Part shown: positions 22,724-24,948 of the stretch, in pieces
How the letters are laid out: each line of letters starts with the position of its first letter
How positions within the stretch are numbered: the first letter of the stretch is position 1
DNA from: an uncultured Verrucomicrobiales bacterium
Lineage (GTDB): Bacteria > Verrucomicrobiota > Verrucomicrobiia > Verrucomicrobiales > Akkermansiaceae
Reading direction: 5' to 3'
DNA length: 32,615 nt
NCBI GenBank assembly: GCA_937969495.1
Contig: CALBVY010000064.1
Span: 1 to 32,615 of the forward strand
Notes under the pieces: generated by a model
What the model saw: the letters and a program-made list of their open reading frames with translations, nothing else
The model's database searches: none
What the model was told of the DNA's origin: nothing
Translations under genes and position numbers: made by a program

Positions 22724-24724
22724 ATGGATGGACATGAACCAATAGATTCTGACGGACCTACCGAACAGCAAAGCCTCGGAAGCATGTACTCGGATTACTT
22801 TCTTGATTACGCCAGTTACGTGATCATGGAGCGTGCCGTACCGCATCTCTGTGATGGTCTTAAGCCCGTGCAGCGCCGTATTTTACACTCTATGCGCGAG
22901 CTAGAAGATGGTCGTTACAACAAAGTGGCCAATGTGGTGGGCAACACAATGAAATACCACCCCCATGGTGATACCTCCATTGGAGATGCCATGGTACAGC
23001 TTGGGCAGAAAGAGCTCCTCATCGATACCCAAGGAAACTGGGGCAATGTGCTTACTGGGGATAAAGCGGCTGCGCCGAGATACATCGAAGCTCGCCTAAC
23101 ACCTTTCGCCCTTGAAGTCGCATTTAACCCAAAGACTACCGAGTGGACACGGAGTTATGACGGGCGTAACAAGGAGCCAGTTACACTCCCTCTTAAGTTT
23201 CCACTTCTTCTGGCACAAGGAGTAGAAGGCATCGCTGTGGGCTTGGCCTGTAAAATGCTACCGCATAATTTTATTGAGCTCCTAGAAGCCTGTATCGCGC
23301 TACTGCGCAAGGAAAGCTTTGAGCTACTACCAGATTTCCCCACTGGTGGCTTGATGGATGCTAGCAATTATAACGATGGCTTACGTGGCGGAAAAATCCG
23401 TGTGCGTGCTGAGATCAAAATTGAGAAAAAACGCATGCTGCGTATTACCCAAGTGCCTTTTGGGGTGACCACCGGAGGTCTTATGGACAACATCGTGGCG
23501 GCCAATGAAAAGGGTAAAATTAAGATCTCAAAAATAGAGGACAACACCGCCGCAGAGGCAGATATCCTCATTCACCTTCCTGCAGGGTCAGATCCAGAGA
23601 CCTCGCGAGATTCCCTTTACGCATTTACAGATTGTGAAGTCTCTATTTCTCCAAATTCCTGTGTAATTTACGATGGTAAACCACGGTTTATGGGGGTTAC
23701 TGAAATCCTTAAACACTCCGCTTTCCAGACCAAAGATCTGCTCAAGATGGAACTGGAAATCAAGCTCGGTGAGCTCCAAGAAAAATGGCACTTTTCCTCA
23801 CTGGAAAAAATCTTCATCGAGAACAGAATCTACCGCGACATTGAAGAATGTGAAACGTGGGAAGCCGTCATTGAGGCCATCGATAAAGGGCTCAAACCGT
23901 TTAAAAAACTCCTCAAACGTGAAGTCACCGAGGAGGATATCGTCAGACTAACAGAAATAAAAATCAAACGTATTTCAAAGTATGATTCCTTTAAGGCAGA
24001 TGAAATCATCCAGAATCTCGAAAATGAAATCGGAGAGGTAGAGAAAAACCTGCGCAATCTAACACGTTACACCATCGCCTATTTTAAAAATTTAATCAAA
24101 AAATACGGTAAAGGTAGAGAGCGCCGCACAGAAATCACCTCATTTGGCGTAGTCAACCGCGTGCAGGTAGTGGCTGCAACTGAGACTCTGTACGTCAACC
24201 GGAAGGACGGTTTTGCTGGCTGGGGATTGAAAAAAGAGGAAAGCCTCGAGAAGTGTTCGAAGATTGATGATGTCATTGCTATCGATGGCGAGGGCATTAT
24301 GCGCGTTTCCAAAGTAGCGGATAAAGCCTTCGTCGGAAAACGCGTGCAGCACATTGCTATTTTCCGCAAGGATGAAGAAAAAATCTTCTCAATGATCTAT
24401 CGAGATGGTCGCCAAGGCGCAGTTTACGCAAAGCGCTTCAAAGTCGGTGGAGTTACCCGGGATAAAGAATATGATCTCACTAAGGGGACCAAGGGCACGC
24501 GTGTGCTCTACCTCGCAGTTCATGATACCGAGCAAGAGAGTGAGGACAATACCGTGCTCGTTCACCTGAAACCTGCTCCACGCCTCCGCAGTCTGTCACG
24601 TTTATTCAGCTTTGGAGAACTCGCTCTCAAAGGCCGTGCGGTAAAGGGAAACCTGGTGACCAAACACATCGTAGACCGTGTCGTCAGAGCCCCCAAAGAT
24701 GGCGAAGATCTGGAACTTGAGTAA
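22724..24724 (+). CDS. parC: Type IIA topoisomerase subunit A (ParC/GyrA-like)
   Basis: This 666-residue protein has the breakage-reunion domain of GyrA/ParC: YASYVIMERAVPHLCDGLKPVQRRIL (residues 29-54), KYHPHGDTSIGDAMV (77-91, the quinolone-resistance region with Thr84 and Asp88) and AAAPRYIEARLT (115-126) with catalytic Tyr120. A coiled-coil stretch near residues 420-450 leads to a short C-terminal beta-propeller-like part. The canonical GyrA box is absent and the protein is much shorter than GyrA, so a topoisomerase IV role is likelier. The wording resembles the Bacteroidetes ParC type. No parE is adjacent in the window, which is unusual. Confidence 0.88.
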   Translation: MDGHEPIDSDGPTEQQSLGSMYSDYFLDYASYVIMERAVPHLCDGLKPVQRRILHSMRELEDGRYNKVANVVGNTMKYHPHGDTSIGDAMVQLGQKELLIDTQGNWGNVLTGDKAAAPRYIEARLTPFALEVAFNPKTTEWTRSYDGRNKEPVTLPLKFPLLLAQGVEGIAVGLACKMLPHNFIELLEACIALLRKESFELLPDFPTGGLMDASNYNDGLRGGKIRVRAEIKIEKKRMLRITQVPFGVTTGGLMDNIVAANEKGKIKISKIEDNTAAEADILIHLPAGSDPETSRDSLYAFTDCEVSISPNSCVIYDGKPRFMGVTEILKHSAFQTKDLLKMELEIKLGELQEKWHFSSLEKIFIENRIYRDIEECETWEAVIEAIDKGLKPFKKLLKREVTEEDIVRLTEIKIKRISKYDSFKADEIIQNLENEIGEVEKNLRNLTRYTIAYFKNLIKKYGKGRERRTEITSFGVVNRVQVVAATETLYVNRKDGFAGWGLKKEESLEKCSKIDDVIAIDGEGIMRVSKVADKAFVGKRVQHIAIFRKDEEKIFSMIYRDGRQGAVYAKRFKVGGVTRDKEYDLTKGTKGTRVLYLAVHDTEQESEDNTVLVHLKPAPRLRSLSRLFSFGELALKGRAVKGNLVTKHIVDRVVRAPKDGEDLELE

Positions 24725-24742: not shown

Positions 24743-24777
24743 TTGACATTTAATTGGTGTTCACGAACACTGTTCAC
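24743..24777 (+). promoter_or_regulatory. TTGACA promoter with three TGTTC/GAACA half-sites
   Basis: TTGACA (24743-24748) is followed after 17 bp by AACACT (24766-24771), a poor but correctly spaced -10, six bases before the ATG at 24778. Overlapping the -10 are TGTTC (24758-24762), GAACA (24765-24769) and TGTTC (24771-24775), which form inverted pairs with 2- and 1-base spacers. This looks like an operator over a promoter, with transcription beginning at the start codon. The half-sites equal those of the verrucomicrobial LexA motif, but the spacing differs. Confidence 0.4.
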
Positions 24778-24948
24778 ATGAATAAATTCAACCTCAACCC
24801 ATCCTCTGTCATCGTTTCTCTCAAAGCTGTATTAGATCGAGGTATTTGTCTTATCCGTGGAGAAAAATACGATGTGAACCCTAGATCACAGTGGCAGCAA
24901 CTAGAGCTACCATTCTCTAGGACTCCAGTGAAAAAATGGAATCGCTAG
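24778..24948 (+). CDS. Small unknown protein, 56 residues
   Basis: From ATG 24778 the protein is 56 residues, basic, with a C-terminal QWQQLELPF segment. I do not recognise a family. The longest frame starts at TTG 24754, but that would place the operator-like repeat inside the gene, so ATG 24778 is preferred. There is no Shine-Dalgarno motif; the promoter spacing suggests a leaderless message. It stands alone, 53 bp after the topoisomerase stop. It is probably a real regulated small gene, though chance cannot be excluded. Confidence 0.5.
   Translation: MNKFNLNPSSVIVSLKAVLDRGICLIRGEKYDVNPRSQWQQLELPFSRTPVKKWNR

Follow-up and report, generated by a model that had tools for sequence, protein, structure and literature searches.

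In a window of 32,615 nucleotides from an uncultured Verrucomicrobiales bacterium of the family Akkermansiaceae, we find a gene of 56 codons whose start codon lies within a LexA-type box and whose product ends in a conserved peptide of the beta-clamp-binding type (Table 1). Control of this gene by LexA is well supported, and we consider it fairly probable that the locus, read as a whole, specifies a basic microprotein that is induced in the SOS response and occupies the sliding clamp. A wider proposal is advanced more tentatively, as possible rather than probable: that the gene represents a new class of SOS effector in the Akkermansiaceae, leaderless, with its operator in the first codons, and serving as a clamp-occupying replication brake or polymerase-exchange factor. 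Such a protein would point to a means, not recognised before, by which these bacteria control replication once their DNA has been damaged.

Table 1. Features of the small-gene locus, in coordinates of the window
Feature	Coordinates	Strand	Basis or remark
parC-like topoisomerase IV subunit A gene	22724..24724	+	conserved upstream neighbour
-35 hexamer TTGACA	24743..24748	+	read directly
TGTTC at N2 spacing	24758..24762	+	only in the window's genome among genus copies
Extra GAACA half-site	24765..24769	+	one base 5′ of the LexA box
-10 hexamer AACACT	24766..24771	+	17-base spacer from -35; six bases, then ATG
LexA box TGTTC-ACAT-GAATA	24771..24784	+	TGTTC-N4-GAACA type, spans the start codon
Gene of the 56-residue protein, stop included	24778..24948	+	ORF; homologs in the genus; selection on the tail
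WQQLELPF, with beta-clamp-binding-type hexapeptide QLELPF (24898-24915)	24892..24915	+	alignment and motif count
SRTPVKKWNR basic C-terminal extension	24916..24945	+	only in this genus (alignment)

The original prediction described a TTGACA hexamer, a correctly spaced -10 element ending six bases before an ATG, and a 56-codon ORF, all of which lie where it had placed them, as do three half-sites, TGTTC, GAACA and TGTTC (the last at 24771-24775), with spacers of 2 and 1. It had regarded this spacing as odd, and had suggested either a variant SOS box or the site of another repressor. A further half-site that it overlooked, GAATA at 24780-24784, within codons 1-3, completes a box of normal N4 spacing over the start codon, matching TGTTC-N4-GAACA at 9 of 10 positions, so that neither the variant spacing nor the other repressor is needed. 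The last T of the -10 hexamer is the first T of this box. Since only six bases separate the -10 element from the ATG, leaving no room for a Shine-Dalgarno sequence, transcription probably starts at the ATG and yields a leaderless mRNA. An alternative start, TTG at 24754 (64 aa), was ruled out, the upstream frame not being conserved. A generic promoter scan of the window gave nothing at this promoter, and an Rfam search of the window gave no match. Taken alone, the window's own box, with its one mismatch, is within chance and not significant: the window holds three sites with at most one mismatch against 1.04 expected, and 10 of 100 shuffles reach three.

It is conservation in register that lifts the operator above chance. 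TGTTCNNATGAAYA covers the start codon, in the same register, in all 13 copies of the genus, with GAACA as the right half in seven and GAATA in six, and TGTTCNN[AG]TGAACA spans the start in that register in 10 of 10 readable copies of three other Akkermansiaceae genera (g8, g9 and g16). All 12 genus copies whose upstream sequence is long enough have TTGAC at a spacer of 17 and keep the -10 register (AACACT, AATACT, GATACT, GAAGGT or TATGGT); in g8, g9 and g16 the -10 reads TANNNT. In relatives the protein and the N4 box are conserved and the half-site at N2 spacing is not, this first TGTTC being confined, among the same 12 copies, to the window's genome. The extra GAACA is present in six of them, exactly those with a GAATA box (the window's copy included), and absent from the other six. 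In the window a second, degenerate box can be made out at 24756-24769, 15 bp upstream of the first, and the extra GAACA is its right half; in G011 a second box with one mismatch is present. Given that GAACA-N1-TGTTC is also found at lexA in the genus, the extra GAACA appears to mark a second LexA site, adjoining or incomplete, and its occurrence beside GAATA boxes may reflect compensation through a second LexA dimer; this arrangement is at the same time the triple repeat of the original prediction. The three copies of genus g12 are arranged differently: none has the N4 box at the start, and all have GAACA-N2-TGTTC upstream (L120, L122 and L276), a spacing known from Gram-positive LexA. This could be a shift of the LexA motif; the g12 recA loci inspected do not settle which motif this genus uses. 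The g12 copies, which do not have the box, begin with Met-Thr or Met-Ser, so that the Met-Asn start seems to be fixed by the LexA box.

Comparison with the lexA and recA promoters of the genus revealed that the N4 box is common to both. Among 14 genus genomes lexA was found in 12, and 11 of these lexA promoters have an N4 box with no more than one mismatch (exact in the window's genome); [GA]AACA-N1-TGTTC is likewise present at 11 of 12. At recA, a box with at most one mismatch occurs in 12 of 14 loci, often as two boxes 15 bp apart; the recA box of the window's genome is weak, with two mismatches, and one other locus (L082) is too short upstream. The umuC-like genes have the N4 box in 10 of 10 cases, nine of them exact, and dinB has no box in any of eight. 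Over the 14 genomes the pattern TGTTCNNRTGAACA gave 24 matches versus 7 for the reversed control. With both protein and operator conserved, and the N4 box shared with lexA and recA, neither outcome named at the outset as refuting is seen, and the data support the SOS interpretation put forward originally; we infer that LexA binds the operator, and the gene is probably switched on by DNA damage. One genome, G001, carries the small gene but gave no lexA match (it is 76% complete). G004 alone in the genus has no small gene, and it belongs to the pair of genomes that gave no lexA match, a single suggestive case.

Boxes spanning a start codon were also seen elsewhere. In the window's genome, TGTTCATATGAATA lies over the start codon of a TIGR03916 radical SAM repair-type gene (L026:170-1507, contig C16), whose product has QMELSF near its C-terminus. 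A start-spanning TGTTCNN[AG]TGAACA was noted at a recQ-like gene (L269, in G013) and, in frame, before lexA-like genes (L179 in G277 and L221 in G415), these names resting on sequence likeness. In the family, with 130 loci read among the places listed (most g9 and g16 places falling outside them), a clamp-tailed small ORF was met at such a box only in G020, most of the other boxes standing before very short frames or before other genes, among them lexA-, recA- and recQ-like ones.

The protein was described at the outset as unknown, which holds in so far as no family match was found: the genus protein and alignment gave nothing useful in Pfam, PHROGs, NCBIfam or PDB sequences, and a search for a viral relative found none. 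It is not featureless, however, its tail being of the clamp-binding type. Homologs were found by sequence search of 58 genomes in the window's genome and in 12 of 13 others of the genus, and in none of the 44 remaining; a class-wide profile search (384 genomes) gave strong matches to genus members only, and the 22 weaker matches that were read are mostly due to chance. While the first half of the protein is variable, the genus tail, PQWQQLELP[FL][ST]RTPV[KR][KR]WNR, is nearly invariant, and WQQLELP is invariant in the 13 copies. The pN/pS ratio is 0.13 for the tail, 0.068 for the clamp motif codons and 0.67 for the middle, with synonymous sites near saturation; the tail is thus under strong purifying selection and the protein is real. 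The motif Q[LM]x[LF]P[FL] lies within the last 22 residues of 22 of the 24 family members tested (a frequency that is partly selected in other genera, since the motif helped to spot the first members there) and is absent from the other ORFs of 30-110 aa in the sequences examined, 5,527 in number. After these motif-aided first finds, every ORF of at least 29 codons behind parC was listed; with G024, which has the motif, and G428, which has not, the tally is 23 of 26, and the three exceptions show degraded forms (QRLQLPF in G424, GAKLVF in G028 and GSRLVF in G428). The family proteins, of 47-72 residues, are basic, with net charges of +4 to +16. AlphaFold models the genus protein at low confidence (mean pLDDT 63) with an unstructured tail, so that the conserved peptide, of the Q-L-x-L-(P)-F/L type, lies in a region predicted, at that confidence, to be exposed. 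Binding of the tail to the DnaN sliding clamp is probable.

The upstream gene is presumably parC, a name that we give it by sequence likeness. A search with the parC end found matches in 57 of 60 family genomes, and the downstream side was read at 30 loci, 28 of them readable (in g9 one was masked and one lay at a contig end). The small gene stands directly behind parC in 18 of these 28: in g1 (6/6), g8 (1/1), g9 (4/4 readable), g16 (5/5) and g12 (2/3), and in none of g10 (0/6), g7, g11 and g14 (0/1 each); in the third g12 genome (G024) it lies about 6 kb from parC. The proteins of the other genera have 47-49 residues, a net charge of +9 to +16 and a predicted N-terminal helix (mean pLDDT 72.5), and end just after the clamp-type motif, as in QLELPFR, QMELPFR, QLDLPFRG or QMDLPLSQ. 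Sequence search alone did not join them with the genus family, and Pfam gave nothing useful with their alignment; profile-profile comparison does join the two groups (probability 87.5, moderate). Together with synteny and operator register, this match argues moderately for a link between them. In a parC tree of 30 rows, carriers and non-carriers occur to either side of branches with weak support, and the tree therefore does not discriminate between a single ancient gene later lost in places and gain on several occasions. In three genomes of genus g80, of the same class (L043, L044 and L047), another small ORF of about 50 aa, with QQLELPL, is conserved; it is divergent from a WYL/WCX/HTH_11 regulator (by Pfam, in the L047 copy only), and regulators of this type can answer DNA damage. 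It may encode a parallel clamp-binding microprotein.

The mechanism that we propose would run as follows. In the undamaged cell, LexA would sit on TGTTC-N4-GAAYA, covering the last base of the -10, the start site and codons 1-3, as a simple road block to RNA polymerase; upon DNA damage its removal would release a probably leaderless mRNA. The product would consist of a lineage-variable N-terminal helix, which, being basic, might hold DNA or a partner, and of a flexible tail whose QLELPF or QLELPL could dock in the peptide groove of DnaN. Many induced copies would then compete for clamp grooves at stressed forks, and the occupied grooves would most likely limit access of the replicative polymerase, causing replication to pause or aiding polymerase exchange; exchange to DinB, a pause of Pol III or recruitment of a partner are alternative outcomes. 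This effect on replication is the least certain step. Peptides of this kind are plausibly encountered by the clamps of the family: in the genus all 8 DinB proteins end in Q[LM]EMF, and in a genome of the same family a Y-family polymerase has RWEQLELPF near its C-terminus.

Instead of inhibiting, the protein could act as an adaptor that brings another SOS protein (a translesion polymerase, RecA, or radical SAM/UDG repair proteins) to the clamp. We rate this as unlikely, if worth serious consideration: the motif adjoins the conserved SRTPV[KR][KR]WNR extension, which could bind a partner, and the umuC-like proteins of the genus have no C-terminal Q-motif. But the extension is absent in other genera, and no umuC-like gene turned up in G000, G001, G007 or G010, all carriers of the small gene, which makes a dedicated UmuC adaptor unlikely. 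The linkage to parC would be explained if the protein modulated topoisomerase IV in the way that SbmC/GyrI, a LexA-regulated inhibitor, acts on gyrase in E. coli. The gene does stand directly behind parC at 18 of 28 readable loci, but this reading is improbable, as the gene has its own promoter and box, keeps away from parC in G024, and has the clamp-type motif as its best conserved element. Scarcely better, and if anything a little worse, is the idea of an SOS cell-division inhibitor like SulA, YneA, SidA or DidA: small size, restriction to a lineage, the LexA-type box and the N-terminal helix would all suit it, but the clamp motif would have no purpose in such a role and the proteins are strongly basic. 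That the operator serves some other repressor, with an ORF that is merely incidental, as the chance level of the window's site taken alone would allow, is very improbable, the box type being shared with lexA, recA and umuC-like genes and coding selection being seen.

Cell division is the target of the best-known SOS brakes; a damage-induced microprotein directed at the clamp would, if confirmed, act directly on replication as a brake or switch, and the tail peptide, being a natural one, could inform the design of clamp inhibitors. The gene is also an example of an operator written into the first codons. Its parts are of known kinds and their combination is, to our knowledge, new: among titles and the first parts of abstracts, our literature search found no small clamp-binding protein of the SOS response, which is no proof of absence. 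The LexA regulon of Verrucomicrobia studied by Erill et al. in 2016 reportedly has a TGTTC-N4-GAACA operator, with tandem sites at lexA, the same operator type as at the small gene; we know of no clamp-binding microprotein in that regulon. SocB of Caulobacter crescentus, as one account has it, is small, binds the sliding clamp and inhibits replication, presumably because other clamp binders are outcompeted (PMC7566177). The likeness is one of description, both being small proteins of clamp-binder type, with binding predicted in our case; SocB, however, is a toxin that ClpXP removes by way of SocA, and no SocA-like neighbour was noticed in the ORF lists here. As to the peptide, QLSLPL is reported to be required for clamp binding by Hda of E. 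coli (PMC3836487), that of ImuB is given as QLPLWG, and QLSLPL placed in DnaQ is described as a strong-binding form; QLELPF resembles these published peptides, as well as QLEMF of DinB in the genus. The TIGR03916 protein of the window's genome comes close in having the same start-codon LexA-type box together with a C-terminal QMELSF, but it is an enzyme of 445 residues. In Hda, ImuB and DinB, too, the peptide is carried by larger enzymes or hub proteins, whereas in the small protein it makes up most of what is conserved.
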